Shown: positions 2,367 through 20,403 of the stretch, one piece after another | Position numbering within the stretch: the first letter of the stretch is position 1 | Layout of the letters: every line of letters begins with the position of its first letter | Source of the DNA: a virus | Virus record (IMG/VR): IMGVR_UViG_3300037492_000365 | Span: 1-22,398 of that record | DNA length: 22,398 bases | Strand: one strand, 5' to 3' | The notes under the pieces: model-generated | The model's database searches: none | What the model was told of the DNA's origin: nothing | What the model saw: only the letters and a program-made list of their open reading frames with translations | Position numbers and translations under genes: made by a program

Positions 2367-2599
2367 CGCGCGACGAATACGTTAAGGCCGAGGCCCGCGC
2401 TGTCCAAGCCTGCAGTGTCGCCGCGGACGCCCATGATCGGGCTTACGGGGCGTATGAAGCCATCCGCTACGTCGGCTCCCGCGCGGCCGTGGAGGACGCC
2501 TACACGGCCACGTTGACCACCCGCGCAGTCTACGACGCCGCGAAGGCGTGGCGCGACAATACCGGTTGGCGTCGCCCAACGTTGCGAGGTGCCCGATGA
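2363..2599 (+). CDS. Small Ala-rich helical hypothetical protein, 78 aa
   Basis: I do not recognise it. The start is placed at ATG 2363 because it forms an ATGA overlap with the preceding stop. The sequence is Ala/Tyr-rich and almost wholly helical (DEYVKAEARAVQACSVAADA, then AYGAYEAIRYVGSRAAVED), with a basic C-terminus (GWRRPTLRGAR). It is soluble, with no signal or membrane segment. It is translationally coupled on both sides, so it is likely expressed together with the recombination proteins downstream. Confidence 0.5.
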   Translation: MTRDEYVKAEARAVQACSVAADAHDRAYGAYEAIRYVGSRAAVEDAYTATLTTRAVYDAAKAWRDNTGWRRPTLRGAR

Positions 2600-2802
2600 G
2601 CCCGCAACGCGAGCTGGACGCGCCCTTGATTCGCTTCGGCCGCGCGGTCATCGACCTGCAGCGCGTGCCCCTCATCCCGTACGCCGAGCGCGACGAAGAA
2701 AGCATCGCGCTTTTGTGCGACGCGACGACAGAGTGGGCCGCGTCACTGGCCGTGGTGACCGCCGTGGCCGTCGAGCGCGCACTCGCGGGAGGTCGCGAGT
2801 GA
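2596..2802 (+). CDS. Small hypothetical protein, 68 aa
   Basis: The start ATG at 2596 overlaps the previous stop (ATGA), and its own stop overlaps the GTG of the exonuclease fusion (GTGA). The protein has a charged first half (LDAPLIRFGRAVIDLQRVPL) and an Ala/Val-rich second half (ATTEWAASLAVVTAVAVERA), which could be a buried or weakly membrane-associated helix. It shares no motif I can name. Because it directly precedes the exonuclease-annealase gene, a partner role is possible, but the sequence does not show one. Confidence 0.5.
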   Translation: MSPQRELDAPLIRFGRAVIDLQRVPLIPYAERDEESIALLCDATTEWAASLAVVTAVAVERALAGGRE

Positions 2803-4274
2803 GCACGCTAATTGTTGATTTCAGCGCCGTCTTTTGGCGCCAATGGCACGCGAGCGGGAACGAGGCCGTGAATTTTGCGCGCCAACGCGCCGTCGGGCAA
2901 ATCCGCGCTCACGCTGTTGAGGCCCGCGGCTTCCCGCTTGCCCCTCGCGCGGGTGCCGTTATCGCGCTTGACGCGGGCAACAACTGGCGGCGTAAATTGT
3001 GGCCCGAGTACAAGGCCACGAGGCCCGACAAGGACGCGCTCGCGCTCGAGCAGTTGCGTCTCTGCGAGCAGGAGCTGCGCGCGGAAGGCTACCCGCTCGT
3101 GCGCCTTGACGGGTACGAAGCCGACGACGTTATCGCGTCGCTGTGCGCGTCAATCGAGGGCCACAAAACAATCTTGACGGCAGACAAAGACCTGCTCCAG
3201 CTCCTCGGGCCGGAGTGCGACATGTACCATTTAGCCCGCGATAAATACGTCTTTGACCTCGACGTGCAAAGCGAGCTCGGCATTACGCCAAGCCAGGTTG
3301 CCGAGTGGCTCGCACTCGCGGGGGACGCGAGCGATAACGTTCCCGGGGTCGTCGGGGTCGGTCCCAAAGGCGCGAGCAAATTGCTTGCAAAACATGGCAC
3401 CCTTGCGGGCATCTTCGACGCGCTCGGCACCGAGGGCACGTTTACCCCTGCCCTCGACAAAAACCTGCGCGACGCTGCGAGCCGCGCCGACTGCCCGATC
3501 CTGATGAGCCTTGAACTCGTCAAGCTGAACGCCAAGCGCGCAATGGCCGCGATCACTCCCGAATTGCTCGCGGCAATCAAAGCGCCGCGGAAACCACAAC
3601 CCAACACCGCAACCGAAACAGAAGAAAACATGATTCAAGAACACGAATTTGAACCCGAGGCCGCGGCGCTGCCAGAGCCACCTAAAACCCTGCCGCATCA
3701 ACACGAGGTGCCCATCATCGAACGCGCCCCCGAAGCGCCTACAGCGCACGCCCTGGCGGTGCTGCCGCGCGACTGGACGCGCCAGCTCGAGCCAATCGAT
3801 TCGCGCTCAGCCTACGGCTTGGCTAAAGTCGTCGTCGCGTCGCGGATGTTTCCCGCGTATGGCGCTCCCGAGTCCGCGCTGTTGGTTCTCATGGCGGGCC
3901 GCGAATTCGGCCTCGGCGCTATGGCATCGCTCAGGTCATTCCACATCATCGAAGGCAAGCCCACAATGAGCGCGCAGGCCATGATGGCGCGGTGTTTGGA
4001 GCATCCGAGCTGCGCGGAGTTCCGTGTGGTGCGGAGCGAGTGCAGTAACGAGCTTGCGACTGTGAGCGTGCGCCGCGTCGGCTGGACTACGCCCGAAATC
4101 TACACGTGGAGCGCCGACGATGCGAAGCGTGCGGGCCTTGCTGGCCGGGGCAACTGGAGCAAATATCCGCGCGAGATGCTAATCAATCGCTGCATCGCCG
4201 AGGCCGCGCGATTCACTTGGCCCGAGGTTATGGCGGGTGTGTACGCGCCCGAAGAATTTGGCGGTGCGTCGTGA
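2799..4274 (+). CDS. FEN-family 5'-3' exonuclease fused to RecT-like single-strand annealing protein, 491 aa
   Basis: One uninterrupted frame, started at GTG 2799 by GTGA overlap. Residues 1-275 are a FEN/PIN exonuclease: D7 (LIVDFSAVFWR), D58, YKATR (71-75), GYEADDVIA (E107, D109, D110), TADKDLLQL (D129, D131) and GDASDNVPG-VVGVGPKGASKLL (D176, D179, helix-3-turn-helix). All expected metal ligands are present. Residues about 276-337 form a Pro/Glu-rich linker. Residues 338-491 match RecT-family annealases: MAGREFGLGAMASLRSFHII, EGKPTMSAQAMM, then SADDAKRAGLAGRG, KYPREMLINRCIAEAARF and VMAGVYAPEEFG. Known phage systems usually encode exonuclease and annealase separately (Red alpha/beta, RecE/RecT). 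I infer coupled resection and annealing of replicating DNA. An internal ATG at 3630 in the linker could give a free annealase. Confidence 0.88.
   Translation: MSTLIVDFSAVFWRQWHASGNEAVNFARQRAVGQIRAHAVEARGFPLAPRAGAVIALDAGNNWRRKLWPEYKATRPDKDALALEQLRLCEQELRAEGYPLVRLDGYEADDVIASLCASIEGHKTILTADKDLLQLLGPECDMYHLARDKYVFDLDVQSELGITPSQVAEWLALAGDASDNVPGVVGVGPKGASKLLAKHGTLAGIFDALGTEGTFTPALDKNLRDAASRADCPILMSLELVKLNAKRAMAAITPELLAAIKAPRKPQPNTATETEENMIQEHEFEPEAAALPEPPKTLPHQHEVPIIERAPEAPTAHALAVLPRDWTRQLEPIDSRSAYGLAKVVVASRMFPAYGAPESALLVLMAGREFGLGAMASLRSFHIIEGKPTMSAQAMMARCLEHPSCAEFRVVRSECSNELATVSVRRVGWTTPEIYTWSADDAKRAGLAGRGNWSKYPREMLINRCIAEAARFTWPEVMAGVYAPEEFGGAS
3630..3632 (+). promoter_or_regulatory. Possible internal start for a free RecT-like product
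   Basis: ATG codon 278 of the fusion falls in the interdomain linker, preceded by AGAAGAAAAC, a weak purine-rich ribosome site. Initiation here would yield 214 aa covering the whole annealase half. The signal is weak, so this is a possibility only. Confidence 0.2.
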
Positions 4275-5120: not shown

Positions 5121-5618
5121 ATGAGAAAAACGCCCACACCGATTGACGACGAGATTGAAATCCCAATGCCTCAGGATAAGGAGCGTGCGGGATGGCTCGA
5201 CACGACGGCCTGCGGGGAATGCAACGGGAGACCCAAGGAGTACTCAGCGGCTTGCGCGAAATGGCACGAGTGCAAAAGTTGTGCTCCTCCCGTTCCTCGA
5301 CCCCCGATGACAACGTGGGAGCTTGACGCGGATTGGTTCCAAGCAATAGCGAGCCAGTTGCGCCAAGACCCTGTGCACTCTGTGCCACGGTTAGACCCAG
5401 ACATTCTGTACGAGCAGCTAGGCTATTTGAGAGAAGGCCGCGATTTTTGGCAAGAGGCCGCGGAGAAGGGGTATCAAAGAATCCGCACGTTGACGCGCGA
5501 AAACCAAACGATTCGCGCGTCGTTTAACGAATGGAAGGCCGACGCGGAATTAGCCGAGGCGCGAGTTTTGGAGCTCGAAGGCTACGCCCCGCCAAAGGAG
5601 CAAAAAGGCACCGGCTAA
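5121..5618 (+). CDS. Hypothetical Cys-cluster and coiled-coil protein, 165 aa
   Basis: ATG at 5121 has GAGG about 8 nt upstream; the longer frame from 5067 would overlap SSB out of frame. Residues 31-54 hold C31-x2-C34, C45 and C51-x2-C54, a zinc-ribbon-like cluster. A Pro stretch (PPVPRPPMTTW) and a helical second half follow (LDPDILYEQLGYLREGRDFW, then heptad-like AELAEARVLELE), which probably forms a coiled coil. I do not recognise the family; a zinc-binding nucleic-acid or adaptor protein is plausible. It ends the rightward operon, and its stop interleaves with the stop of the convergent endolysin gene in the four bases CTAA. Confidence 0.65.
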   Translation: MRKTPTPIDDEIEIPMPQDKERAGWLDTTACGECNGRPKEYSAACAKWHECKSCAPPVPRPPMTTWELDADWFQAIASQLRQDPVHSVPRLDPDILYEQLGYLREGRDFWQEAAEKGYQRIRTLTRENQTIRASFNEWKADAELAEARVLELEGYAPPKEQKGTG

Positions 5619-6748
5619 CCGCGCACCAGCCGCAGGAATAGCTCCCAAGGCCAGCGCACGTCCCCGACGCCTCCCGGGTCAACGTGCGTTGATTTCTTGA
5701 ACGCCGCCCCAACTGCCGCGTGGCTCGTGATGCCGCGTTTGCCGGCGAGAAGGCCGGCGGCGTCCACGCGCTCGAGTGGGATATCCCAGCGCTTGCAGAT
5801 TGCGCGCACAAGCTCGGCTGCGCGCACAACGACTCGGAGGCCGTCCTGCGGCCCGTCCCCGTCGCGAGTCCAGTCCGTCTTGTGGGCTTGCCCGACGAGT
5901 TCGATTTGGATGCCGGTGGCGTTCGCGCCCGGTGCGGCCCATGCGACGTCATGCTCGATAACGCATTGAAAAACCTTCTCAGGCCCGACGACGTAGTGGG
6001 CGCTCGCTTGCGGCGCGTCTTGCCCCGCGAACCACAAGGCGACGTTTCGCGCGGTGCCGACGGCGATGGGATTTTCCGTGCTGTGCAGCACTACCCAATC
6101 GACCTTGGCGCGGTTTGATTTTGTGTAGTTTTTGGCCAGGATTGTGGCCGACTTCGCTCGTTCCGCAGGCTTCGGTGATGGTGGGGCCGTCACGACGATG
6201 CCGCCCCCTCGCACCACGTGCGTCGTCGTTGCGTAGTCGGCATGGCTGCTCCCTGCGTGCGCCTTGCTTGCGTTTTGCCACTTTGTCCCATCGGTACGCC
6301 ACCAGCCGTAGATGAGCCCGCCAGCCGCCCAGTGCTTGCCAGCATTCGCCACGGGTTCGTCGATCCAATTCTTCGCCGCGAGGCGTGCGAAAACCTTCGC
6401 GTCGTGCAGACGCGCCCACTCAAGCGACGTCATATTCCCGTTGCGGAATTTGTCGATGCCAGGGACGTCGTTCGCGCGGATACCAGCCTCGGCGAGTTGC
6501 TCGGCGGTCGGCATCGTCGCGGGGTCGATGTGGAGCGCCACAACGTGCAGCGCGTCGAGCTCGTCGAGCGACGGGAGACGCGCGCCGTTCGCCGTGGCCC
6601 ACTCGACGGCTGTCCGCGGCGTTAATCGAGCGAAGCAACTCGACGCGGAGTCCCACAGCGGGAGTCTCGTAATTTCGACGCCGCTCGGCAGCGCGAACCA
6701 ACCCGAGGGATGAGGCGCCACGCAAGACAGCGGCGAAGTGAATGTCAT
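5615..6748 (-). CDS. Endolysin: N-acetylmuramoyl-L-alanine amidase with unknown N-terminal domain, 377 aa
   Basis: Residues about 213-377 are an Amidase_2-type zinc amidase, which cuts the bond between muramic acid and the stem peptide. VVLHSTENP gives H222, SAHYVVGPE the core strand, GIQIELVG (E283) the following strand, and ITSHAAVGAAFKKSTHVDPGG the C-terminal metal region (H343, H355, D357). Residues about 25-180 form a separate domain (ARLPSLDELDALHVVALHID, EPVANAGKHW, LIYGWWRTDG, DYATTTHVVRGGG) that I cannot name; it could be wall-binding or a second catalytic module. No signal peptide is seen, so export would rely on the holin. ATG 6748 overlaps the upstream stop (ATGA). The gene is last in the lysis cassette. 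Confidence 0.85.
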   Translation of the reverse strand: MTFTSPLSCVAPHPSGWFALPSGVEITRLPLWDSASSCFARLTPRTAVEWATANGARLPSLDELDALHVVALHIDPATMPTAEQLAEAGIRANDVPGIDKFRNGNMTSLEWARLHDAKVFARLAAKNWIDEPVANAGKHWAAGGLIYGWWRTDGTKWQNASKAHAGSSHADYATTTHVVRGGGIVVTAPPSPKPAERAKSATILAKNYTKSNRAKVDWVVLHSTENPIAVGTARNVALWFAGQDAPQASAHYVVGPEKVFQCVIEHDVAWAAPGANATGIQIELVGQAHKTDWTRDGDGPQDGLRVVVRAAELVRAICKRWDIPLERVDAAGLLAGKRGITSHAAVGAAFKKSTHVDPGGVGDVRWPWELFLRLVRG

Positions 6749-7002
6749 CGCTCGACCCGAGCGCGCGGCGCACGATGAGCCGCAAAGCGATGCGCCCGCA
6801 TACTGTTATCAGCGGTATTATGGCCGCAATTGCATTGCGCGCATCGAGCGTAGACGCGCGCGCAATCAGCGCACCGGAGCACGACGGTCGCAATCACAGG
6901 TTTATTGCCAGTCAAATGCCACGCTTTGTCGCAAAAACGGCCCTCAATGCGATCTTGCCGCGCGACTCCACCGTAGTGCGCGGGCGTCAAGGTAGACGTC
7001 AC
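6745..7002 (-). CDS. Small Cys/His zinc-finger-like protein, 85 aa
   Basis: GTG at 7002 is chosen for its GTGA overlap with the upstream stop; GTG at 7011 is an in-frame alternative. C44-x2-C47 and C54-x2-C57 are followed by H61, H71 and H76. C54-x2-C57-x13-H71-x4-H76 approximates a C2H2 finger, while the two C-x2-C pairs alone could form a zinc ribbon. The C-terminus is very basic (HRFAAHRAPRARVER), consistent with nucleic-acid or envelope-phosphate binding. No family is recognised. It sits between two wall-degrading enzymes, where a zinc protein is unexpected. It may regulate, or it may simply occupy a compact operon. Confidence 0.6.
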   Translation of the reverse strand: MTSTLTPAHYGGVARQDRIEGRFCDKAWHLTGNKPVIATVVLRCADCARVYARCAQCNCGHNTADNSMRAHRFAAHRAPRARVER

Positions 7003-7568
7003 GGTTGCCACGCCGGGGTTGAGTGCGCGTGCAGCAACTGAGCGAACAACGCGAAACGTTTACGCGAGCCCGCCTTGCCACCATCGTTCGAGCACGAGCC
7101 GCTTCCGTAGGCCGCAAGGCGCTCTTCGACTGGCAGACGCCAGCACGCTAGGAGCGAACCACGCAAGGCTTTGAGGCCTACCGCCAAGAGCTTGCGCCTG
7201 TCGGCGAAGTGCTCCGCGCGTCCTGCGGAGAGCTGAACCTGGAGGATGCCCACAGCGCGCCCGCCGTCGCACCTCGCCGCGTAGTTGCGTCCCAGGTGCC
7301 GGCCTCGAAAACATGGCCCCTTGTCCGCGTCGAGCGCCAAGCCCGTCTCGCCGATAGCCATCGCAAGCACAAACGCCGCGGACTCGGGCCGCGTCAACCC
7401 TGGTAGCGGTTCGTGCGCCTGGACGACGAAAACGATGTCCTCGGCTATGGCGGCGTACCTCACGCGCGTCGCGTCGGCAGTCTCGTCGTAGCCCGGGAAC
7501 CGCAACGCCTGCGACGGTGGCGCAAATTGAAGCGCCAGCGCGAGCAGCCACTCGACGACGACGGTCAT
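6999..7568 (-). CDS. Secreted lysozyme-like (transglycosylase-type) muralytic enzyme, 189 aa
   Basis: An N-terminal hydrophobic stretch (VVVEWLLALALQFAPPSQA) looks like a signal peptide or signal-anchor. The remainder resembles the SLT/goose-lysozyme fold: AMAIGETGL with E74 as the likely catalytic glutamate, GGRAVGILQVQ (102-112) matching the G-x-x-x-G-x-x-Q loop, and LAAYGSGSC (151-159) matching the AY-x-x-G motif. Four cysteines (86, 100, 142, 159) could make two disulfides, as expected for a periplasmic protein. I infer glycan-strand cleavage, complementing the amidase. It might instead be a virion-associated transglycosylase, although the neighbours favour lysis. Its stop and start both overlap neighbours by 4 bp. 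Confidence 0.68.
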   Translation of the reverse strand: MTVVVEWLLALALQFAPPSQALRFPGYDETADATRVRYAAIAEDIVFVVQAHEPLPGLTRPESAAFVLAMAIGETGLALDADKGPCFRGRHLGRNYAARCDGGRAVGILQVQLSAGRAEHFADRRKLLAVGLKALRGSLLACWRLPVEERLAAYGSGSCSNDGGKAGSRKRFALFAQLLHAHSTPAWQP

Positions 7569-8835: not shown

Positions 8836-9363
8836 TCAGGAGGTGGAGTTGGTGATTAGGCCCAAATTTGCGAGCTCAGTAAGTAAGTTTTGTAGGGCCG
8901 AGTTTCCACCGCGAGAACCTGTTACCGTCGGCTTGGCAATTGGCGTAGTGGCGAAAAATCCTATTGACTGGCCGGAGCGCCCGATTTTTACCGACGTTGC
9001 CGCAATGGTTCCGATGTTAATAATTGCCGCAGCGTCGAGCGTCCATGACGTGGCCCCGCCTGTCATCGTGCTTGTCGCCCCGGGTACAATTTGAAGCCCG
9101 AGCACGGTGCCGGACGAATAAAACGACCAACTGCCAGCGCGCCATGCTTGAGCCGCGCCGTTAGAATCGAAAAACAACCTGCCGGTTCCGCTCATCTCTA
9201 CGGACAGGTCAGTGTTAATCGGAGCGCGCACAACCGACGCAGCGCCGCCCGTGAACCAATTTGTCGCCGTACTGCCAATCGCGGCACCGCTACCGACAGC
9301 CGCAACCGTCACCTCGCCAGACGCCAGCCGCAACGCACCGCTTTTTGTTTCGTGGATTGTCAT
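8836..9363 (-). CDS. Fibre-like virion protein with conserved Gly-rich C-terminus, 175 aa
   Basis: Rich in Gly, Ala, Ser and Thr with many short beta strands, typical of trimeric fibres. The C-terminus FFATTPIAKPTVTGSRGGNS followed by ALQNLLTELANLGLITNST is a motif I recognise from many phage fibre or head-fibre proteins (F-x-G-x-x-P-V-x-x-P-x-V-x-G-S-x-G-x-N, then LLxxLAxLGLI). The family usually decorates virions or binds host surfaces. It lies after the ejection proteins and just before lysis, which suits a short tail fibre or spike. The protein is short, so it may need a partner to attach to the particle. No catalytic motif was seen. Confidence 0.7.
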   Translation of the reverse strand: MTIHETKSGALRLASGEVTVAAVGSGAAIGSTATNWFTGGAASVVRAPINTDLSVEMSGTGRLFFDSNGAAQAWRAGSWSFYSSGTVLGLQIVPGATSTMTGGATSWTLDAAAIINIGTIAATSVKIGRSGQSIGFFATTPIAKPTVTGSRGGNSALQNLLTELANLGLITNSTS

Positions 9364-9808: not shown

Positions 9809-10093
9809 TCACCAGTGCACCAAGAGGCCGGTCGCGGTGGTGCCAACCGCAATGATTTTCGCGGCCTGGATTTCGCGCGACTGACCGCCGTAAATCGGGA
9901 CAGTCACGTTCACGCCGTCGCCGCGTTGAACGACGATGACGCCAGCAACGCCCAGGGCCGCGTTTTGCACGGTGATTCTGATGCAGGTCCGCTTGCGGCC
10001 CTTCGGATCGTTTGCCAATAAATCCACGTCGGCGACGATGGCCGGGAACGCAACGTAATCCGGCGACGAGTAAAGTTGGCTGGAGGCGCTCAT
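9809..10093 (-). CDS. Small hypothetical virion-region protein, 94 aa
   Basis: ATG 10093 overlaps the stop of the large ejection protein (ATGA). The sequence is beta-rich: LYSSPDYVAFPAIVADVDLL, then RKRTCIRITVQNAALGVAG and VIVVQRGDGVNVTVPIYGGQ, ending AAKIIAVGTTATGLLVHW. It looks like a single compact beta-sandwich. Lying among structural genes, it is probably a minor virion or fibre-adaptor protein. No known family is recognised. Confidence 0.6.
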   Translation of the reverse strand: MSASSQLYSSPDYVAFPAIVADVDLLANDPKGRKRTCIRITVQNAALGVAGVIVVQRGDGVNVTVPIYGGQSREIQAAKIIAVGTTATGLLVHW

Positions 10094-12939
10094 TTCAGCT
10101 CCGAGGTTAGCGCAATTCCCTCGCTACCGCTTTGATAGTTTTTGGCGATGTTGCTTGGCGGGCCTCGACGCGCTGGCGGTGGAGCTCCAGACGGCCCCGC
10201 GCTTGCCGGCGGCGGGTAGATCGATTGGATGGCGCGCATTGATTGAGGCATCAATAGCGGGTCCGTTGGAATGCCAAGCAACAGCCCGAGCTGCGTGCGC
10301 GTTGCGACGTTTGGCGCGCGCCCCTCGGCTTGCAATTTGGCGAGCTTTTGAACGACGCGCGCTTGCATGTCCGCAAAAGTCGCAGGGTAAACCGTTCGCA
10401 CGGCGTCAACGGCCTCGGGTGAAAGCTTGCCGGATGCAACGTCGTCAAGAAGGCTTGCGGGGTTCTCGACGGTGCGAAGGCGCACAAGCCAAGTTTGAAT
10501 TTGCGCGCGCGTAGGCGGGAGGTCTTGCGCGTAGGGTGTGGGAGCTTTCAAGCCCTTCGGCAAATTGGCGTTGAGGTAGTCCACCTGGCGCACGGCTGTT
10601 TTGACGGCCTCGGTTCGCGCTGTCGGCGCTTGCTCTGCCAGCCACTCGGTTTGTTTTGCGACCTGTGCCTCAATAGCGGGGAGCTGCTCTGCGAGCTTGC
10701 GAACGCTTGCGGCTTTGGCGGCGAACGCTGCCGCAGCAACGCCGGTTGTCGGCGCTCGTTTAACGGCAACGACGGACGTTTTGCCGATAGCGTCGGCGGC
10801 TTTTGTGACGCCCGCGGCAACCGTCCCGGCTTTGCCCTCGGCGATGTTGTCGAGCATCTCCGCGGCGCGCAAAACCGTGCGCGTCCCGAGCAGCGGTGAG
10901 ATCCACTTCGGCAAGAACCCAACGCCAGCACCGAGGTCCGCGAGCGTCTTTTGAGCCTTTGCGACTTGCGCGCCTTCAATAAGCTTTTTTTGCAAACGCG
11001 CGTTGATCGCCGCCAGCTCAACCATGTCCGCGCGATGTGCCGGCAGCTTGCTCAAATTGCCAAATTCAAGCGCGGCTTTTTGCCATTCCGTCAAATCTTT
11101 GATTTGTGCAAATAGCGATTTATAAGCAATGTTTTCTGTGGGCTTTGTCGTCGCGGCGATGTTTGCAAGAATCGATTCTGGGTTTGCGATGCGCCCACTT
11201 AACCACGGGTTTGTGGGGTGCGCCCCGTACTCAGTGCCGTGATACCAGGACTGCATAACCATGCTGGATTTGTCAAACGACGCGGACATTGGCGCGTTCA
11301 TTCGCTTGTTTTGCGCGCCTGCTAACCCCCATATCGCCTCGTCTTCAAGGCCGGTGCGAAGGCGCCCGTACATCGGCTCAAGGATGTCGGTTAGCAACCG
11401 CCGGTGCTGCGCGCCCATGTTGGGCATTCCTTGAAAATTCGATGTTACCTTACCGACTGCGCGCTTGGCTCCAACGTCGAGCGCTTTGTACGCGGCTTCG
11501 GAACCTTCGGCCCCGCCCAACGCATACGCGGCATCAATTTCGCGCTGCGCGAGCAAAAGCTCGTGCTTCAACTGCGGCAATCCGGTTTGCGCGTACTGTT
11601 GTTTTCCTTCTAAAATTGCCCTTTCAACATCGTCAAGCGATTGCTGAATTGCTTCAGCCGCAAACGCCCGTTGCGTTAACACGCTGTCCGCGTCGGACGA
11701 CACCAGGCCTTTATAGGATGCGATTTTTAGATCGCCGTTGCGAATCAGCGTTGCCGTTTTTTGTTCAAGCACCCATTTGCGATCTAGGTCCGCTTGGATC
11801 GATTCGGGTTGCGCTTTAACGAGCAACCCGCCCTCGGGTTGTTTGCCCGAGACAAGCTCTGCCAGGCGCTTTTCGCCGTCGAGCGCAGCAGCACGCGTCT
11901 TGGGCTCGGCCAGGCGCATCGCGTCGTCGAGCTCGGCCCCCTTTAGGCCAGCCATTCGGCCTTTCACTTTGAGCAGCGTTTTTGCCACCGGACGGCTGAC
12001 ACCTGGCGGTGGCGTCAGCGAATCGACGAAGGCCGCGGCGGTTACGTCGTCTAGCGTCGTGGCTGCACTCGCGCCGAGCGGGGCAACTTCGCCCGCCGCA
12101 GGCACGGCCTCGAGCACGTCGCCAACCGCGCCAACGGGCGCTTTGACGGCCCCGGCTTCAAGCGGCGTTGCCAAGTCGGTGAGCGGTGCCTCGACGCGTC
12201 CTGCGGCCTCCTGTGCTGCCGCCGGTGCGCCCCGGCGAGCGACTTTGCCAAGCAACCCAGCGCCGGCCCCGATGCCGCCGCCAAGTCCAAACCCGAGCGC
12301 GCCACCAGTTAGGCCCGCCGCGGCAATCTGGCCAATGCGTTCGCCGTTGAGCTGGTTGTCAAGCGCGAGTTGCCCCGCTTCGCGTCCAGCGCCTTGTAAC
12401 GCCCCTTCGGCGGCGCCCTGCACCCCGAATCGCAACGCGGTGCGCCCGATGCCTTGGGTGGCCCCCTCGGCGGCGGCAAGGCCTAGCCCCGCGACCGCGC
12501 GCTCGCCCGCTCGCATCGCAAGCGCCGCTGGAGCTTGAGCCGCGATGCGAGCGGCGAGGCTCCCGATGATTGGAGCCGCGCCAGCCCCGCCCGCTGGCGC
12601 GGTCGCGATGGCCGAGGCGATGATGGGCGCGACAGCACCGACGACCTCGGAGCCGATTGACAGCCCTGGCTCGAGCTCTTGGTACGCTCGCAACCGCTCC
12701 CCGAGCCCGAGTTGCGAGGCGAGAAGGTCCGATCCGCTGAGTGTCGCGCCGCGTAATGCGCCGCCGACCACGGCCCCGACCTTGGCCTCGATGCCGCCGT
12801 ATTTTTCGCCGAGTTCAGCTTGCGCGACCTCTTGCGCCGTTGGGACGCCGTAGCCCTCGTCCTTGGCCGCGGCGAGGTCGGATTCCTCGACATAGACGAG
12901 CTTGCCGCTGAGGGGCTTAAGGACCGGAACGCGGGCCAT
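10090..12939 (-). CDS. Large internal virion (DNA ejection) protein, 949 aa
   Basis: A long Ala/Gly-rich helical protein with no enzyme motif. After a short N-terminal part (MARVPVLKPLSGKLVYVEES), residues about 53-235 contain repeated Gly/Ala hydrophobic helices (GAVAPIIASAIATAPAGG, LTGGALGFGLGGGIGAGAG) that could insert in membranes. Residues about 330-900 are charged helices and likely coiled coils, and a Pro-rich tail follows (IYPPPASAGPSGAPPPARRG). Size, composition and position after two other Ala-rich proteins match podovirus internal core proteins such as T7 gp15/gp16, which leave the capsid to form a conduit through the envelope. This is inferred from context, not from specific homology. 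No transglycosylase signature was found. Confidence 0.68.
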   Translation of the reverse strand: MARVPVLKPLSGKLVYVEESDLAAAKDEGYGVPTAQEVAQAELGEKYGGIEAKVGAVVGGALRGATLSGSDLLASQLGLGERLRAYQELEPGLSIGSEVVGAVAPIIASAIATAPAGGAGAAPIIGSLAARIAAQAPAALAMRAGERAVAGLGLAAAEGATQGIGRTALRFGVQGAAEGALQGAGREAGQLALDNQLNGERIGQIAAAGLTGGALGFGLGGGIGAGAGLLGKVARRGAPAAAQEAAGRVEAPLTDLATPLEAGAVKAPVGAVGDVLEAVPAAGEVAPLGASAATTLDDVTAAAFVDSLTPPPGVSRPVAKTLLKVKGRMAGLKGAELDDAMRLAEPKTRAAALDGEKRLAELVSGKQPEGGLLVKAQPESIQADLDRKWVLEQKTATLIRNGDLKIASYKGLVSSDADSVLTQRAFAAEAIQQSLDDVERAILEGKQQYAQTGLPQLKHELLLAQREIDAAYALGGAEGSEAAYKALDVGAKRAVGKVTSNFQGMPNMGAQHRRLLTDILEPMYGRLRTGLEDEAIWGLAGAQNKRMNAPMSASFDKSSMVMQSWYHGTEYGAHPTNPWLSGRIANPESILANIAATTKPTENIAYKSLFAQIKDLTEWQKAALEFGNLSKLPAHRADMVELAAINARLQKKLIEGAQVAKAQKTLADLGAGVGFLPKWISPLLGTRTVLRAAEMLDNIAEGKAGTVAAGVTKAADAIGKTSVVAVKRAPTTGVAAAAFAAKAASVRKLAEQLPAIEAQVAKQTEWLAEQAPTARTEAVKTAVRQVDYLNANLPKGLKAPTPYAQDLPPTRAQIQTWLVRLRTVENPASLLDDVASGKLSPEAVDAVRTVYPATFADMQARVVQKLAKLQAEGRAPNVATRTQLGLLLGIPTDPLLMPQSMRAIQSIYPPPASAGPSGAPPPARRGPPSNIAKNYQSGSEGIALTSELK

Positions 12940-12941
12940 TA

Positions 12942-14801
12942 TTATTTACTCTCGTACGATTTCACGGGAGCGGCACGAGACGCACCGTCGCGGCGCACTG
13001 CGCCCGCGGCTTTGAGGTGCTGCCGCACGGAGTCGGCCGCAAGTTTTGGGATTTCATGGATAGTCGTTGCCCATGCGTCTTGGCCGAACGTGCGTGGTGG
13101 CGCCGTCACCGTCGCTTGCGCCCTCTCTTCCGTCGGTGCCGACGGGTTGAAGCCGCCGCTGTTCGCTTTCGCGAGATTAGCGGCGAGCGCGCCACGAATA
13201 ATTTCGCCCCGCCCCGCCGCTACCGATGTTCCAACTAACTGATGCCAGCCGCCCTTACCAAGTTCGACCAACGACTCGGCTTGGTTCTGCGTCGCTGCCG
13301 CTGCCGCTGCCGCGCTTTGTAAATCTCTCGCGGCATCCTTCGGGACGAGATAGTCCACGCCTTCGAACGACACCACGCCTTGCGTTTTTCGCGTCTCGCC
13401 TTCGCCCCCGGCTTCGCGCTCGGCCTTCACCGTATCGGCTCTGTCCCGCCTCATCTTGAGGTCTTCTCGCTCTACCGCGCGCTCTTTCGCGAACGCCTTC
13501 TCTTCTGGCGTAGCCCCGCCACCACCACCGCCGCGATTCGCCGCCGCGATGCGTTGCTGCTCGGCTTTCGCGTGGAGCAGTTGAACTTCGTTGTCGCCTT
13601 TCTTGCTTTCGAGATCCAAATGCTCCGCGAGCTTCGTCGCGTTCGCACGAATCGCCTCGGTGCGCCCCTCGTTCGCGAATCGCAACGCCTGCGTTTTTAG
13701 CACGTCGTTTTGACGCGCCCTCGTGAACTCCGCGGCTTGCTGGTCGTCCCCGAATTGCTGGCGCGCGAGGCCGTAGATTGACTGCGCCGCGCCGAGCGCG
13801 CTCTTTTTATTGTCAAGGTTCGCTTTTTGCGCCGCGATATCGTTGTCGATTGAATTCTGTAGCATTGCAAGCGCGTTGTTTTTGAGACGCCCGCCGCTGT
13901 AGCCTTCGGCGTAACCACCGAGCGCAACAGCCAAGAGCGACAAGACGTTGCCGAATGCGTTGCCCTTCGAGAAATACTGCGACGGGTCAATCTTTGTCGC
14001 GGCAATGTCGGCTTTCATCGTGTCCATTTGTGCGACGCGATTACTTTGCGACGCGTCGAACTCGGAGCGCATCTTTTCGTAGCTGGCAATCTGTTCTCGC
14101 TCGGTAACTGCCGCGGCCTCTTGCGCCTTCGTGTCCCGCTCGAGCGCGTTTGCGAGGCTCGTTTGCTCGGCCCCAGCGGCCACTAAATCGGCTTTGCGCT
14201 TGGCCGAGTCAATCAACATGCCCTCGCCGGTCAAGCCTAGCGGCGTGGCGGCGTAGCGCGCTTTCGCGGCGTCGTAAGCCGCGGCTGCTTGCGGCGTGAG
14301 TTTGCCTGAGGCTTTTGCAGCCTCGTAAGCTTTCTCGTCAGGCAACGTGCCGTAGAGCATCGGCAAGCCAGCGGGTGCGGCTGGACGCGGGGCGTAGGTT
14401 ACCGGTGCGCGGGCGATGGTTTGCGGGGCTGCGGGCGACCTACTGAAATCGGCTGTGGCGTAATCAGGTTGTCGCTCGCCTAAAAAAGGGGACGGCGTTG
14501 CCAAGCGTTGAAACGCAAACTGGCCTTCTAGCGGGGCCACCCCGGGCACCAACGCCGGGGACGCGAACGACATCGCGCCCAACGATGGCGCGTTGCTTTC
14601 AAAAAGTCTTGCGACGCTTTTCGGTGGTTGCGCCGCCGGTACGCCAAAGTCTCTATCCCGCGCCAGTGTTTCCGGCACGCGCGTGGATGCCAGCCGCGCC
14701 GCGGATGCGGCAAGCGCCGCGCGTTCTGCGCCTTGTTTTAGCCGCTGTTCGCGTGCGAAGGCTTCTTCGTCGGTTTCTGGCCACAATTCGGGAGTCGCCA
14801 T
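12942..14801 (-). CDS. Internal virion protein, Ala-rich coiled coil, 619 aa
   Basis: ATG 14801 overlaps the preceding stop by one base (TAATG). Residues 1-160 are Pro/Ala-rich and probably disordered. Residues about 200-400 are coiled coil around a conserved-looking block: IDPSQYFSKGNAFGNVLSLL, AVALGGYAEGYSGG, ALAMLQNSIDNDIAAQKANL, SIYGLARQQFGDDQQAAEF. I have seen this pattern (D-x-x-x-Y/F-F, Gly-rich turn, AIDxDIxAQKxxL) in other phages' internal proteins, so the call is stronger than composition alone. A Gly6 linker near residue 425 precedes another charged helix and a less ordered C-terminus. Likely a core or ejection protein. Confidence 0.68.
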   Translation of the reverse strand: MATPELWPETDEEAFAREQRLKQGAERAALAASAARLASTRVPETLARDRDFGVPAAQPPKSVARLFESNAPSLGAMSFASPALVPGVAPLEGQFAFQRLATPSPFLGERQPDYATADFSRSPAAPQTIARAPVTYAPRPAAPAGLPMLYGTLPDEKAYEAAKASGKLTPQAAAAYDAAKARYAATPLGLTGEGMLIDSAKRKADLVAAGAEQTSLANALERDTKAQEAAAVTEREQIASYEKMRSEFDASQSNRVAQMDTMKADIAATKIDPSQYFSKGNAFGNVLSLLAVALGGYAEGYSGGRLKNNALAMLQNSIDNDIAAQKANLDNKKSALGAAQSIYGLARQQFGDDQQAAEFTRARQNDVLKTQALRFANEGRTEAIRANATKLAEHLDLESKKGDNEVQLLHAKAEQQRIAAANRGGGGGGATPEEKAFAKERAVEREDLKMRRDRADTVKAEREAGGEGETRKTQGVVSFEGVDYLVPKDAARDLQSAAAAAAATQNQAESLVELGKGGWHQLVGTSVAAGRGEIIRGALAANLAKANSGGFNPSAPTEERAQATVTAPPRTFGQDAWATTIHEIPKLAADSVRQHLKAAGAVRRDGASRAAPVKSYESK

Positions 14802-16333
14802 TATTTCCGAGCCTCCACGCGCTTCAATCGCTTGCCAACTTGACCGAGCATCCCGAGCATTGGCCCGATGGCTTTGGTCGTGTCCAAGCCGAGGCCGCGG
14901 GGCGTTGGCGTGACCATCGCCGCTGTCAGCGGGTTCGATTGCATCGCCTGCGCCGACACCCCGAGCTGCCGCCCCGCGGGTCCAACATCGCCGCGGTAAT
15001 CAAACGACTTCGGCGAGGCTGCGTCGAGCGCGCCGTTAAGCATTTTCGGTTGCAATTTGCTTGCTGCTTCGGCTGCGTAGTCGTCGAACGAGCGCACAAC
15101 CTCGGCGCGTTTCGCGGCCTCCGGTGCGCGCGCGCGACCCTCGAATTCTGCCGCGCGTTCGTTGAAGAATTGCGCCAGCTTTTGCGATTCATCGGGCGCC
15201 GCCCCGTACTCATCATCCGAAATGCCCTCAAATTGCGTTGGCATCGCCTTGGCGACGATGGCCGCTGCTCGCGGGTCAATCGCGCGTCGGATGCCTAGAT
15301 GCTCGTTTGCCATGGCGCGCTGCGCTTCGGTGTACCGGCTAGGTGTCGCCGTGATTGCGTCGGGCGGGAGCTGCACGTCCCCGCGGCGCCTTGGCATTGA
15401 AAGCGGGGCCATTAGCTGTTGCGTCGGCATCATATAGCTGCCGTCGGCGAGACGCACGGGCTTACCTGAGACGTCGGCGGGGTTCGGTGCGTCACCCGCG
15501 ACTGCGCGGTCCCGCTCGTTCAGGCTCGCGGTCAGCGCCCGCAGACGTGCGGCCTTGATGTCGGCGGGGCTCGTGATGTCCGCGTCGTTCTCGTCGCTCA
15601 TGCGCTGGAGCTGCTCGATCTCGTCGTCGTCGCCTGCGGCCGGCTCGTCGTCACTCAGCGGCCTCTTTCGCGCGTAGCCCGCGGGCGTATTGTAATACCT
15701 TTTTGCGGCCTCGCGATTCGCGGGCATCGCTAAAGCTTCCATCAATTTGTCTGCCGCCATGCCGCCGTCTTTCATGTTTTTCTTCTGCCTTTCGTCGGAC
15801 ATTACCGTTTTTCCGACTACCCCGGCCACTCCGGTCACAGCCCCCAGCACCGCGTTTTGCGTCCTGGTTTCGTCGGCTTCTTTTTTAGCCTGCAAGTCGT
15901 CTTTGGCTTGCTGATTAAAAGCGTAATCGCTGTACGACTGCCCGAGTTGTTGGCCTTCAATCCCGCTTTGCGCCATGTCCTGCGCCCCGCGTTGCTGCAA
16001 AAGCGCAAGCCTGGCTTTGCGCGCGTACGCGGCTTGTTGCTCGCGAATTCCAGCGGCTGCGCCGTAGCCTTGTGACTCGAGCTCCGCGTTGGCCTGGCTA
16101 GCGCCGCGCGCCATAGAGGGGTCGTAGCCGCGCCGGCCCGCTTGCGATTGGGCGAAGGCCTGCTGTTGTTGCAAGCCTTGCCACAGCTGCCCCTCCGGCC
16201 CTTGCGTGGCCTTCGGCCCCATCTCTGGCGGCACGATTGTCCCGAGCGCGTCGTCGTAGAGCGCGCCGTAGGCGTCTCGGCGGCGTTGCTGACCTTCGGG
16301 GCGGGCGTATTTAAAATCGTCGATCATTGTCAT
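14801..16333 (-). CDS. Internal virion protein with interrupted S74-like motif, 510 aa
   Basis: ATG 16333 has GGAG 7 nt upstream. Residues 1-160 are Gln/Ala-rich coiled coil. Residues 161-178 are Gly/Val-rich, leading into SDERQKKNM (179-187), which resembles the S-D-x-R-x-K-x-N opening of S74 intramolecular chaperone/peptidase domains. The expected continuation, KSFDYRGDVGPAGRQLGVSA (442-461 region) with QAMQSNPLTAAMV, then TPRGLGLDTTKAIGPMLGML and a final coiled coil, appears only about 240 residues later. The intervening part is acidic and disordered-looking (DDEPAAGDDDEIEQL). Homologues often have the two halves adjacent. Self-cleavage has not been shown in such internal proteins and is uncertain here. 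Confidence 0.65.
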   Translation of the reverse strand: MTMIDDFKYARPEGQQRRRDAYGALYDDALGTIVPPEMGPKATQGPEGQLWQGLQQQQAFAQSQAGRRGYDPSMARGASQANAELESQGYGAAAGIREQQAAYARKARLALLQQRGAQDMAQSGIEGQQLGQSYSDYAFNQQAKDDLQAKKEADETRTQNAVLGAVTGVAGVVGKTVMSDERQKKNMKDGGMAADKLMEALAMPANREAAKRYYNTPAGYARKRPLSDDEPAAGDDDEIEQLQRMSDENDADITSPADIKAARLRALTASLNERDRAVAGDAPNPADVSGKPVRLADGSYMMPTQQLMAPLSMPRRRGDVQLPPDAITATPSRYTEAQRAMANEHLGIRRAIDPRAAAIVAKAMPTQFEGISDDEYGAAPDESQKLAQFFNERAAEFEGRARAPEAAKRAEVVRSFDDYAAEAASKLQPKMLNGALDAASPKSFDYRGDVGPAGRQLGVSAQAMQSNPLTAAMVTPTPRGLGLDTTKAIGPMLGMLGQVGKRLKRVEARK

Positions 16334-16343
16334 TATTTAGCTC

Positions 16344-16934
16344 CTACGCCTTTGGCCCGCCCAACGCTTGCCCAGCGTACCCGAGTCCGGTGTTCGCCGC
16401 GCCCAACACCGCTTCGCCGAATCGCCTGTCATCCGCGTCTTGCCGCGCCTGGACGCCTTGTTGCAGCTGATATTGCTGCTGCGCCGCGCGTTTCGCGAGC
16501 GCTTGTTTCCGCAGCTCTTCAGTCTGCACCGCTTGGCCGTAGTCGATCTGCCGCATATGCGCCGCCAGCGCCGCGTTGGTACCCGCCTCAAGCGCCTGCT
16601 GCCCCTGCTGCGCGCCCTGCATCGAGGTTTGCAACGCCTGCCCTGCGCCAGCAAACTGCGCGCCTCGAGCTGCTAGCGGATTCCCACTAGCCGCGGCCAC
16701 CGCCGCTTGCTGCATATCCTGCCCCGCCGCGAGCCTCTGTCCCGCCTGCATCTCGCCGCTCATCGCCGCTTGGCGCATCGCTTCAGCCGCGGGTATCTCC
16801 TCGGCGTAACGGGCCTCGAGGCGCTTACGCTGCTCGGCCTCGTAGGCGTCGCCGTACATTGCCCCGGTGGCGTACCGGGCCTTGCTCATTTGCTCTTCAT
16901 ACGTGAGCGGTTCGCCTACAGCCTTGAATGGCAT
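16344..16934 (-). CDS. Small internal virion protein, Gln/Ala-rich coiled coil, 196 aa
   Basis: ATG 16934 follows the upstream stop closely, with AGAGGA 8 nt ahead. The protein is almost wholly helical (YEAEQRKRLEARYAEEIPAA, EELRKQALAKRAAQQQYQLQ), with a Gly/Ala/Gln middle (QFAGAGQALQTSMQGAQQGQ) and a Gly-rich C-terminus (AANTGLGYAGQALGGPKA). There is no signal peptide. In podoviruses the gene after the nozzle is often the small core protein (T7 gp14-like) that opens the ejection channel. I infer that role from order and composition only. It resembles the N-terminal third of the next protein in composition, possibly from shared ancestry. Confidence 0.62.
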   Translation of the reverse strand: MPFKAVGEPLTYEEQMSKARYATGAMYGDAYEAEQRKRLEARYAEEIPAAEAMRQAAMSGEMQAGQRLAAGQDMQQAAVAAASGNPLAARGAQFAGAGQALQTSMQGAQQGQQALEAGTNAALAAHMRQIDYGQAVQTEELRKQALAKRAAQQQYQLQQGVQARQDADDRRFGEAVLGAANTGLGYAGQALGGPKA

Positions 16935-16937
16935 TTC

Positions 16938-19900
16938 TTAATTCCTCTGCTGCGTCCCGGGTTTGTAGAGGCCTTGTTTGCCCGCGAGCTCGACGGTGAA
17001 TCCGGTGCAATCGTAACCCTGTCCAGTTGTCGAACCAGCGCTCGCCGTGTCCTCGATTCGCAATTTAAAAGACGTGCATTTCTGCGCCTTCACTCGCAAG
17101 ACTTCAAGCTCTACGAGTTTCTGATTGTCGATAGTGGCCTCGCCGTAGGATTGGATTTGCGTCGGCGTTGTCGAGTCAAAATCCTGGTAGAGCGAAATCG
17201 TCAAAGTGTGCCGGTTGTTTTTCTTGCACAACGCGGCCACTTGGCGCACGCGCTGCAACCCGCTCTGCTGCGTGGCTTGAAGCCAGCCCGTTTCAATTTT
17301 CATCGGCACGTACAGGGTCGAGCTGTCCCAGTAGCTGGTTAGATCCTCTTTGTAGACGATGCCAGCGCTTGACAGGACGTAGTAGTTTTCCTTGTGCATT
17401 GTCGCGCCTACCGGATCAAGAACGCCCGCCGCGGTGCGGACGTCCCACCGGCTCCACGCGCCTTGGGCGAAATCGTAACACAGGACGACTCCGGTGCTGG
17501 TTACCGGGTTCCGCAGCGTAAACCGAACGTGGTTGTTACGCGGCACCAAAACGCCCGAGGTGCATTCGGTAAACTCATCGGTGGCGTCGAGAATTGCCGC
17601 GCCGATGAAGTTAATCTGCAAGTCGCGCCCGAGCACCATCATCCCGGCTTGCGACTGGAAGAACAGCCCCGCGGGCGTTTCGACGACGCTTCGGACGTCA
17701 ACGCACCCTGCGTCGGAGCTGATAAGCTGGAGGCCCGAAAAGTCGTTGTTGCGGCCCCCGTCGTCGGGGCCAGTCCCGGCCACCGCGTAGATTTTGCCAG
17801 CCGTAAAAATGATGGTTTTGTCGTCGAGCTCGCCGAGCGCCGTGACGTGCTCGCCGCCCGGGATTAGGAATGCGAAGGCGTCATTGAACTCGGGCGCAAT
17901 TGCAAGTTGGTTCGCAGTCGCGGCGTTGTAAAGTTTCGAGTACTGCACACGGTCACGGCGAAAGAAGCCCGCGAGCCACACGCGTTTTGTGCCCACCATG
18001 ACATACGCGGCACCGTCGGGGCCGGCGGCGTCAACCTCGGCCCCCGACTGCGTGTAAAGGGCGTCGAACTGCGCGCCGGTGTCGCGAATGGCGGGGAAAA
18101 ATTGCGTGAGTTCCGAGTCAAACGTGTTTGTTAACGGCGTCGAGCACCGTTGAAACACCCCGTCCTGGTCCGCGCGGAAAAGCGCCACTTGGAAACGCTT
18201 GCCGCTGAAGTACCGTTGCGATGGGCCGAGCGTGTAAAACTCGACTTCCACGCGCAGGTTTGGCCCCGCTACAGTGTGCGTGACCGAAGGGCCGGGGACG
18301 CTGCGCGTCAGGTTGCCCTTTTCATCGTAGCTCTCAAAAACGCCAAGATAAGTGTACGTTCCAGCAACCAGTGTGCTGGTAACGTCGGCAACCGAGGCCG
18401 TGCGGACCACAAAGGGGCCGCTGGCAAAACCGAGCTCCGTGACGGCTTGCCCCGTGTAATAGCCGACGTTTGCCCCGCCGAACGTGACGCCGCCTTGCGA
18501 TGCGGAGCCTTGTGAAACCTTGCCGTTTAAGTCGAGGTCCACGATGTCGCTCGCAAGCGTCGGCTCCTGAATTAAAGCGTCGGCAGTGATTCTGTGCGTC
18601 CCGTACCGATACTCGGTTAGGACCGTGGCTTTTTGCTGGACGGTTTGAAGCGAACCCGTCGGAAGGTTGCGAAAGCTTTTAACAAGCGACGGCGTAACGC
18701 CAAAATTGTACCGGCCCACGGGGGCCGTTAGATGGACAAACGAATTCTCCTGGAAAAGATCAAATATTACCTCGGAGCAGTACCCGTTGCTGCCCGAGGG
18801 GTACAATGGCCGCGCCGCCACGAAAAACCTGTCGTTTGCGGACCACGGCTTGGATACGGCGCCGCAATTTCTGACGGTTTTGCGAGACGAAAAAGCCGTG
18901 TTTGTGGAATTTGTTGCGTTGATGTCGAGGTTGTAGAACGTCGGCGCTATTCCGTTGCCTCGCACAACGACCGTCACTACGCGGTCGTCGTTTAAGGCTT
19001 CGACGACGCCTAGCTGGTACGGTTGGTAACCCGAGCTTGGTACAAGCCAGGACCAGTTGAGCACTCCGTTTTCCGTGTACGCTTTCAAATAAACGTTATC
19101 GGCGTCGTCTGCTGCCAGGATGTAGATTTGCCCAATCCTCGGCCCGTCGGCTATCGCGCAGTACATCCACGCGCGGCCTACGGCGGGCAGAATTACCCAT
19201 GATGCGTTCGTCGCGGCGTCGCTCATGCGCGCTACGTAAATCTCGCTCCCACCTCGCCGGACGTAAGTATATGCCCACTGGCCCGAAAAACCCGTCGGCC
19301 AAGTGCCAAGCGGAGTCGAGTCGTGCGTGCGAACGTTGCCTGTTTCGTCAAACACGTACGCGGTCAAATCTGCGTGCGTAATTGACACAGCCGGCGCGGT
19401 TGTTGGGGTTAAAGACGACCAGCGGTAGAATTGCAACGTTGTCGTCGCGAGGCGCTGGACACTAATAAAAGCCACGCTTTCACCAGCCCCGGCCCCGGCC
19501 CCGGTGACGACGCGAGCGCCGCCTATCTCGGCGTATGCCGCGATTGGATCGGACGCGATAATCGTAGTGGGTTTGATTTCGTTCGCGGCGTTCTCAGCCT
19601 CGATTTTGTAAACGAGGCTCGTCGCAAGGCCCGTGGACAGGCCATTGACGACAAACCGCAACGTCGTCGCCGCGTGGATTGCATAGCCGGCAACGTGCGC
19701 GGTGTCGCAACTTTGGACGCTTAACGAGTCCGAGAACATAGGGCGTTCCGCGCCCGTAAAGGGGGCAAGAGCGCCTTTCTTAAACCAAGACGGGGCAAGG
19801 CTGGCGTTCCCCTCAATAAGCGCCCACAGGCTGCGGTTGCCACGAATTAGCAGCTCGTCGCCCGACGACAGCAACCCCTTGTCGGTGCCCTCGTAAGTGT

Positions 19901-20066
19901 AGCCGGTGGCAGTCACCGGCGTGAACCCGTGCCGCTTTGTCAGCGCCCCGCCGCGCTTGTAATAGGCATTCGTAGCTTGCGCCAGGCTGTCGGGTTGGCG
20001 AAGGCGCTCGTCAAGCTTCTGGTTGAGGCCAGTTGATAGCGGGATAAATATTGGCTGGCGTGGCAT
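16938..20066 (-). CDS. Very large tail nozzle/stabilization-type structural protein, 1042 aa
   Basis: ATG 20066 (MPRQPIFIPLSTGLNQKLDE) is 1 nt beyond the upstream stop; a TTG at 20087 is less likely. The opening pattern, with G-x-N-x-K-x-D, then ATNAYYKRGGALTKRHGF, is typical of podovirus tail hub/nozzle proteins, in which the first strand is followed by a K/R-R-x-GF turn. Almost all the rest is beta-strand, probably propeller and jelly-roll domains. The C-terminal third contains RVWLAGFFRRDRVQYSKLYN, ALGELDDKTIIFTAGKIYAV, LQLISSDAGCVDVRSVVETP and GLFFQSQAGMMVLGRD, a conserved block of this family. I infer that it forms the tail tip through which DNA leaves. Longer than T7 gp12 (about 800 aa). 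Confidence 0.7.
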   Translation of the reverse strand: MPRQPIFIPLSTGLNQKLDERLRQPDSLAQATNAYYKRGGALTKRHGFTPVTATGYTYEGTDKGLLSSGDELLIRGNRSLWALIEGNASLAPSWFKKGALAPFTGAERPMFSDSLSVQSCDTAHVAGYAIHAATTLRFVVNGLSTGLATSLVYKIEAENAANEIKPTTIIASDPIAAYAEIGGARVVTGAGAGAGESVAFISVQRLATTTLQFYRWSSLTPTTAPAVSITHADLTAYVFDETGNVRTHDSTPLGTWPTGFSGQWAYTYVRRGGSEIYVARMSDAATNASWVILPAVGRAWMYCAIADGPRIGQIYILAADDADNVYLKAYTENGVLNWSWLVPSSGYQPYQLGVVEALNDDRVVTVVVRGNGIAPTFYNLDINATNSTNTAFSSRKTVRNCGAVSKPWSANDRFFVAARPLYPSGSNGYCSEVIFDLFQENSFVHLTAPVGRYNFGVTPSLVKSFRNLPTGSLQTVQQKATVLTEYRYGTHRITADALIQEPTLASDIVDLDLNGKVSQGSASQGGVTFGGANVGYYTGQAVTELGFASGPFVVRTASVADVTSTLVAGTYTYLGVFESYDEKGNLTRSVPGPSVTHTVAGPNLRVEVEFYTLGPSQRYFSGKRFQVALFRADQDGVFQRCSTPLTNTFDSELTQFFPAIRDTGAQFDALYTQSGAEVDAAGPDGAAYVMVGTKRVWLAGFFRRDRVQYSKLYNAATANQLAIAPEFNDAFAFLIPGGEHVTALGELDDKTIIFTAGKIYAVAGTGPDDGGRNNDFSGLQLISSDAGCVDVRSVVETPAGLFFQSQAGMMVLGRDLQINFIGAAILDATDEFTECTSGVLVPRNNHVRFTLRNPVTSTGVVLCYDFAQGAWSRWDVRTAAGVLDPVGATMHKENYYVLSSAGIVYKEDLTSYWDSSTLYVPMKIETGWLQATQQSGLQRVRQVAALCKKNNRHTLTISLYQDFDSTTPTQIQSYGEATIDNQKLVELEVLRVKAQKCTSFKLRIEDTASAGSTTGQGYDCTGFTVELAGKQGLYKPGTQQRN

Positions 20067-20067
20067 G

Positions 20068-20403
20068 TTAGAAAATCCACACGTCAACGGTGATCGTTAT
20101 TGCGCCAGAATGCACCAGCGTGACGTCGGTGGACGTCAATGCCGTTTGCGAGTTCACGAACACCCCGGGGCCACCGATTGCTTTAGTGACAATGAAACCG
20201 CTCGGGACGTGCCCGAGATTGTGCGCTAATTTGACGCCGAAAAACGCAGGTACTGCAACGTCGCGGAGCCACACGCCAACTGCAAAAGGGAGACGATTCG
20301 CGTCGCGTCGTTGCGAATCCACGGCCTCGGCGAGCGCTACTTTCGCAAACGAGTCCGACTGAGGCCGCAAGCCTTGGAGCGGAAGCACCCGCGCGCGCGT
20401 CAT
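20068..20403 (-). CDS. Hypothetical beta-rich structural protein, 111 aa
   Basis: ATG 20403 overlaps the upstream stop (ATGA). After MTRARVLPLQGLRPQSDSFA the chain is beta-rich (LPFAVGVWLRDVAVPAFFGV, KLAHNLGHVPSGFIVTKAIG) and ends VTLVHSGAITITVDVWIF. LAHNLGHVPSGFIVT resembles a motif in phage proteins from adaptor or receptor regions (L-x-H-x-LG-x-x-P-x-x), a common virion fold. It lies between the probable adaptor and the nozzle gene, so a head-tail joining or tail accessory role is likely. It could equally be a small spike subunit. Confidence 0.62.
   Translation of the reverse strand: MTRARVLPLQGLRPQSDSFAKVALAEAVDSQRRDANRLPFAVGVWLRDVAVPAFFGVKLAHNLGHVPSGFIVTKAIGGPGVFVNSQTALTSTDVTLVHSGAITITVDVWIF

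Follow-up and report, generated by a model that had tools for sequence, protein, structure and literature searches.

Can an S74 domain still come together and cut when its two ends lie far apart in one protein, or on two genes? This domain, also known as the intramolecular chaperone autoprocessing (ICA) domain, occurs in both phage spikes, where the tip of the tail spike is its best-known location, and MYRF, a myelin factor of animals; it is called intramolecular since the chaperone and its client are made as one chain. The question is raised by positions 1-22,398 of the IMG/VR record IMGVR_UViG_3300037492_000365 (22,398 nucleotides, referred to here as the window). In a minus-strand open reading frame of this DNA (14801-16333), an earlier note made from the letters alone had taken the stretches SDERQKKNM, FDYRGD and RQLGVSAQAM for the two ends of an S74 domain split by an acidic disordered insert, within an internal virion protein. 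We located the three stretches in that reading frame, in agreement with the note, at residues 179-187, 444-449 and 455-464. By comparison with known S74 domains and with related contigs, we show that they belong to an S74 domain in two pieces, that both pieces are conserved, and that in some relatives they lie on two adjacent genes, with two different break points. The reading that we favour, to which we give a probability of about 0.5, is that the gene encodes a putative ejection protein of a podovirus-like phage, in which a two-piece S74 chaperone/protease reassembles and cuts.

S74 identity and conservation of the two pieces

The gene and its parts are the following; the cut is presumed to lie before Ser179.

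14801-16333, minus strand: gene of the two-piece S74 protein, stop codon included; 510 residues; related proteins are encoded in 12 more contigs, incompletely in one of these
15800-16333, minus strand: residues 1-178, alpha-helical N domain, presumed mature product; aligned in 13 contigs, with long helices in the model of the relative in contig L010
15719-15799, minus strand: residues 179-205, N piece of the S74 domain (Ser179, Arg182, Lys184), with SDERQKKNM at 15773-15799
15044-15718, minus strand: residues 206-430, variable insert, with boundaries of our own choice; the least identical region in comparison with 6 of 7 members
14804-15043, minus strand: residues 431-510, C piece of the S74 domain (F444-x-Y446, G458-V-S-A-Q462, V474, terminal helix 485-509)

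Scans of IMG/VR with the target protein, its alignments and the nozzle-like protein encoded upstream yielded 13 contigs including the window, among which there are three near-copy pairs; L002, which carries an identical protein, was not counted. Contig L029 was dropped, having matched only 29 residues of the nozzle-like protein at the contig end. No relative of the target was counted among 50,697 phage records (weak matches at expectation values (E) of 3-6 were discarded) and none was confirmed in genome_contigs, both scans using peptide patterns as a first filter, while a sequence search of the PDB with the target gave nothing at E 1.

The sole Pfam family listed for the window protein was PF13884 (Peptidase_S74), which matched the C piece at 18.6 bits (E 0.0023). 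It was listed for all 12 proteins carrying a C piece, the best matches falling on that piece, and scored above the curated cut-off of 22 bits in four of them (L006, 24.7; L003, 22.2; L008, 23.2; L010, 26.1); the remaining relatives scored 20.1 (L009), 20.0 (L014), 17.8 (L015), 18.2 (L028), 20.6 (L020), 19.8 (L023) and 21.0 bits (L036). When whole records were searched in six frames, PF13884 was matched in 9 of 12, above the cut-off in two (L008 and L020), and L036, the thirteenth record, was also matched. The N piece was listed alone by PF13884 in 2 of 13 records: L010 (profile positions 1-14, E 0.0046) and L023 (1-21, E 0.013). Among six members scanned with PHROGs, the window (E 0.0035) and L003 (E 0.0025) matched phrog_1882, a family with no assigned function.

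Since these single-sequence scores are weak, profiles were compared. The reference set consisted of 12 ordinary S74 domains from phage records (K1F, Roseobacter phage CRP-823, Vibrio phage 1.184.A and nine more), and the N-piece profile was built from 10 of the 13 contigs, the near copies L003 and L015 being left out and L021 not being included. The N piece aligned with the reference domains in hhalign with a score of 31.1 and a probability of 82; none of 100 column shuffles scored above 16.7, and none of 34 windows taken from the domain before it above 11.0. For the C piece, compared separately, the score was 22.8 at a probability of only 10, and the highest of 100 shuffles reached 15.7. Each half thus exceeded all 100 of its shuffles. 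The N and C pieces covered reference columns 3-24 and 35-67, respectively. Judging from PF13884 and from the alignment of both pieces, they are successive parts of one S74 domain, and the insert splits it in two as the note had supposed.

The Ser, Asp and Lys residues of SDxxxK are kept in 13 of 13 contigs, and Arg at +3 in 11. The Lys residue lies in every case five residues after the Ser, which is the dyad spacing of the family. Contig L021 ends before the C piece; in the 12 others this piece is present, and its [F/Y]-x-Y and GVxAQ motifs are kept throughout. Mean pairwise identity, calculated on 10 rows (L003, L015 and L021 dropped), was 0.62 for residues 179-187 (0.48 for 179-201) versus 0.23 for residues 152-178, and 0.51 for residues 444-484 versus 0.28 for 431-443 and 0.21 for 391-430. 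By these figures the two pieces are conserved islands, though not the only ones in the protein.

What sets the group apart is the distance between the pieces. Among the 12 ordinary S74 domains, the G of GxxAQ follows the Ser at a distance of 45-47 residues in all but one, which has a Cys where the Ser would be and whose motif has degenerated to GCTVQ. This distance is 279 residues in the window and 268-385 across the nine members encoded by one gene, so that the contiguity of the S74 family (Ser about 46 residues before GxxAQ) is found neither in the window protein nor in its relatives. As the reference set was drawn from matches to the contiguous K1F domain, it cannot show that split domains are absent elsewhere.

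One gene or two genes

In nine contigs both pieces lie in one gene, on either side of the variable insert, whereas in three (L020, L023 and L036) they lie in two adjacent genes, with two different break points. The first gene of L020 (8493-9110, plus the stop codon) ends shortly after the N piece, and the second gene, which starts at ATG 9116 (or at a GTG at 9110), contains the insert and the C piece. L023 shows the same arrangement, with the stop codon at 14429-14431 and the ATG of the second gene at 14433. The start-to-start offsets of 623 (L020) and 640 bases (L023) leave different remainders when divided by three; the relative frames therefore differ, and one shared frameshift cannot fuse both pairs of genes. 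These two contigs come from different metagenomes and align from the new start codon onwards. In L036 one gene (5893-7182) encodes the N piece together with the insert, and a separate gene for the C piece, of 102 residues (7186-7494), follows in the same frame behind a single TAG. Read-through of this stop codon is possible; general recoding of TAG in L036 is unlikely, since the standard code gives uninterrupted frames for the adjoining long genes, whose stop codons are TGA or TAA. A GGAA tract is present a few bases before the start of the second gene in all three contigs.

Both pieces are constrained although they are carried by separate proteins. In the one two-gene pair compared, L020 and L023, they are the best conserved parts: identity is 85% in the N piece and 84% in the C piece, but 53% in the helical domain and 64% in the insert, and the ratio of nonsynonymous to synonymous substitution rates (dN/dS) is 0.15 for the N piece and 0.11 for the C piece, with dS near 1 to 1.4. 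In the tree of the nozzle-like protein, three changes between one gene and two are forced on well-supported branches, whereas the three two-gene contigs fall together, with weak support (74/74), in the tree of the N domain. As the two trees disagree, they do not decide whether one gene or two was the ancestral state.

The insert measures 214-331 residues in the one-gene members. The earlier note had described it as acidic and disordered: it is acidic in the window, where its net charge is -6, but not in every member, the charge ranging from -9 to +2. Moreover, the peptidoglycan-binding domain PF01471 was detected between the S74 pieces in L020 and L023 (23.8 and 25.3 bits, cut-off 23), so that the intervening segment of these two contigs is not simply an acidic disordered loop. 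The Pfam matches fall in these second genes:

L020, 9116-10177, strand not given: second gene with the PF01471 domain
L023, 14433-15551, strand not given: second gene with the PF01471 domain

When each insert was compared with itself by BLAST, L006, L014 and L015 scored clearly above 30 shuffles, L020 and L028 slightly above, and the other seven not above, which indicates that the insert is lengthened by internal duplication in the first three. The duplicated module, [TS]PERR...LGI...IDPRA, was observed at residues 321-455 in L014, 314-448 in L015 and 322-426 in L006.

As far as the insert, the window and L003 hardly differ; beyond it, the S74 C pieces diverge (dS 2.6), and the next genes, which encode 619 and 565 residues, respectively, have different starts. 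The divergent stretch comprises 14804-15043 and the next gene from 14801 downwards in the window, and 7258-7497 and 7500 onwards in L003. This pattern looks like an apparent allele exchange across a gene boundary.

Proposed reassembly and cleavage, and other readings

Halves that are far apart, or on two genes, suggest that the parts come together after synthesis, and the two-gene cases suggest assembly between chains. We infer that the halves reassemble, trimerise, cleave and act in the virion, by the following route. The C piece would trimerise via its terminal helix and form a chamber with the strands bearing F-x-Y and GVxAQ. The N piece (SDxRxK), which ends a helical domain of about 180 residues, would enter this chamber; it would either belong to the same chain, on the other side of the insert of 214-331 residues, or be supplied by a second protein, as in three of the related phages. 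Given the Ser-Lys dyad, the cut would fall before the serine (Ser179 in the window), and a helical protein of about 178 residues would be released. A more tentative extension, which we hold to be possible but to have somewhat less than even odds, is that the C-terminal subunit, which can be as small as 102 residues, works as a free protein on another chain: it would capture the C-terminal tail of a separate ejection protein, trimerise it and cut it, which would make it an intermolecular chaperone on two genes. If this is so, a naturally split S74 domain on two genes would mean that the two parts can find each other; it should then be possible to trigger cleavage by combining two proteins, which would presumably make it easier to study, and self-cleavage would be added to the maturation of the phage injection machine. 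No description of a split S74 domain, or of S74 in an ejection protein, was found in the titles and abstract openings of the matches listed from the open-access literature.

The closest known systems help to specify this reading. Endosialidase F (phage K1F gp17) shares with the target the Ser-Lys pair five residues apart (S911/K916 there, S179/K184 here), the aromatic-x-aromatic strand, the GVxAQ motif and the terminal helix, which in the target is a predicted one. The K1F domain is contiguous, with 45 residues from Ser to the G of GVIAQ, and lies at the end of a tailspike, whereas in the target group the same distance is 268-385 residues within one gene, or the domain is divided between two, and the protein is encoded at the position of an ejection protein. 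In MyRF, according to PMC8326128, strands form a ring through which the substrate chain is threaded. Residues S587 and K592, the equivalents of endosialidase S911 and K916, are indispensable for cleavage there, residues Y615, Y617, I637 and Q639 are near the cleavage site, and the terminal coiled coil drives a trimer; only trimers cut, and cleavage frees the N-terminal part (PMC8326128, PMC3742443). The dyad spacing is the same as in the target. The counterparts of the MyRF site residues would be Ser179 and Lys184 in the N piece and, in our own mapping by motif order, F444, Y446 and Q462 in the C piece. The two proteins differ in that S587 and Y615 of MyRF are 28 residues apart, and no two-gene form is described in the accessible parts of the two sources (PMC8326128, PMC3742443).

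Several results weigh against reassembly and cleavage. The C piece of the window, at 18.6 bits, falls below the curated PF13884 cut-off; the C-piece profile of the group reached a hhalign probability of only 10 with the reference domains; the six-frame search of whole records missed the window, as well as L003 and L021; and 6 of 7 N-piece fragments scanned alone had no Pfam match, only that of L010 being listed (E 0.096). The core of the helical domain (residues 45-115, identity 0.63) is conserved as much as the SDxRxK motif, and a comparison of L008 with L009 gives an identity of only 50% for the N piece, versus 65% for the C piece and 77% for the helical domain. The window and L003 share their N domain (dS 0.008) but differ in their C pieces (dS 2.6), which implies that exchange can affect the C piece on its own. 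To our knowledge, it would be unusual for an ejection cluster to include an S74 trimer. AlphaFold2 gave a mean predicted local distance difference test score (pLDDT) of 47.8 for the window protein (8 rows) and 65.0 for L010 (15 rows); in both models it stayed below 50 throughout the N piece and in the part of the C piece that runs from ahead of F-x-Y to GVxAQ. The prediction thus did not resolve the domain, and Foldseek found only three matches to the L010 model in the PDB, at E 7-9.5, none at 0.001 or better. The L010 model has long helices in the N domain (pLDDT about 70-92), and both models have the terminal helix, window residues 485-509 being helical in a model of low confidence. We treated the structure predictions as no evidence either way.

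These results leave room for two readings that we regard as unlikely, to about the same degree. In one, cleavage has been lost: the two-piece S74 domain would still reassemble and bring the protein into trimers, as a structural or assembly device. The helix-like end kept in 12 C pieces would fit this, and no direct sign of cleavage was obtained; against it, Ser and Lys, both indispensable for cleavage in MyRF (PMC8326128), are kept in 13 of 13 contigs while the residues between them vary. In the other, pieces of S74 descent no longer meet: the helical protein would now use SDxRxK as a docking tag, and the C piece would oligomerise the insert as a domain in its own right. The separate genes of three contigs, the low conservation of the N piece between L008 and L009, and the C piece that differs between the window and L003 where the N domain does not are all in line with such a separation; against it, S74 signatures and the dyad spacing are kept in both pieces, as are [F/Y]-x-Y and GVxAQ in 12 of 12, whose MyRF counterparts under our mapping are near the cleavage site (PMC8326128).

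It is far less probable that the split is an artefact, with an N motif matched by chance and two-gene cases due to errors of assembly or sequencing. Every case is admittedly an uncultured contig, and L036 is one in-frame TAG, which might be read through, away from a single gene; yet the N piece exceeds 100 of 100 shuffles, L020 and L023 differ in metagenome of origin and in relative frame while aligning from the new start codon, and the GGAA tract precedes the second start in all three contigs. Equally improbable is a C piece acting in trans as a chaperone for other S74 starts, such as that of a tail fibre of the same phage: the free-standing 102-residue protein of L036 would suit this role, but PF13884 was listed only at the target in the 13 records, which are incomplete and in which the search missed the C pieces of the window and L003. 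Reassembly followed by cleavage remains the reading that we prefer.

Neighbouring genes and other features of the window

The genes surrounding the target are the following.

16938-20087, minus strand: nozzle/stopper-like protein, 1049 residues as listed, which served to find relatives and for which an alignment was built
16344-16934, minus strand: upstream protein of 196 residues without an S74 piece; a stretch close to its end resembles target residues 146-172
12942-14801, minus strand: 619-residue protein of the same cluster, function not assigned; in the gene order common to 9 related loci
10090-12939, minus strand: 949-residue protein of this cluster, presumed from its position to be a large ejection protein, with no Pfam match; in the shared gene order

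The order of the genes for the nozzle-like, 196-, 510-, 619- and 949-residue proteins is the same in the 9 related loci that extend far enough. The nozzle-like protein matched phrog_511 ('internal virion protein', E 5e-8) and phrog_8094 ('tail appendage', E 0.014), while a Pfam scan of the 196-, 619- and 949-residue proteins gave no meaningful match. This gene order suggests the ejection-protein cluster of a podovirus-like phage, and the target is encoded where podovirus ejection proteins are expected. The cluster resembles gp14-gp16 of T7-type podoviruses in its position and in the order known from T7, a small protein and then larger ones after adaptor- and nozzle-like genes; it differs in that its 196-, 619- and 949-residue proteins lack a meaningful Pfam match. 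We know of no S74 domain in the T7 core proteins.

Residues 160-186 of the 196-residue protein align with target residues 146-172, ending six residues before Ser179; the hhalign score of 39.4, versus a maximum of 18.9 in 60 shuffles, covers these 27 columns only. SDxxxK is absent from this protein in 10 of 10 members compared. As a modest hint, it looks like a form of a similar end that is free of the uncut tail.

Elsewhere in the window, one plus-strand open reading frame at 2589-4274 (scanned as 2772-4271) matches a phage exonuclease (phrog_107, E 4e-31) and then a RecT-like annealing protein (phrog_561, E 3e-22), and is apparently an exonuclease-annealase fusion. On the minus strand, 5615-6748 encodes an endolysin of 377 residues, for which all 17 PHROG matches begin at residue 147 or later, so that its first 145 residues or so lie outside all of them.

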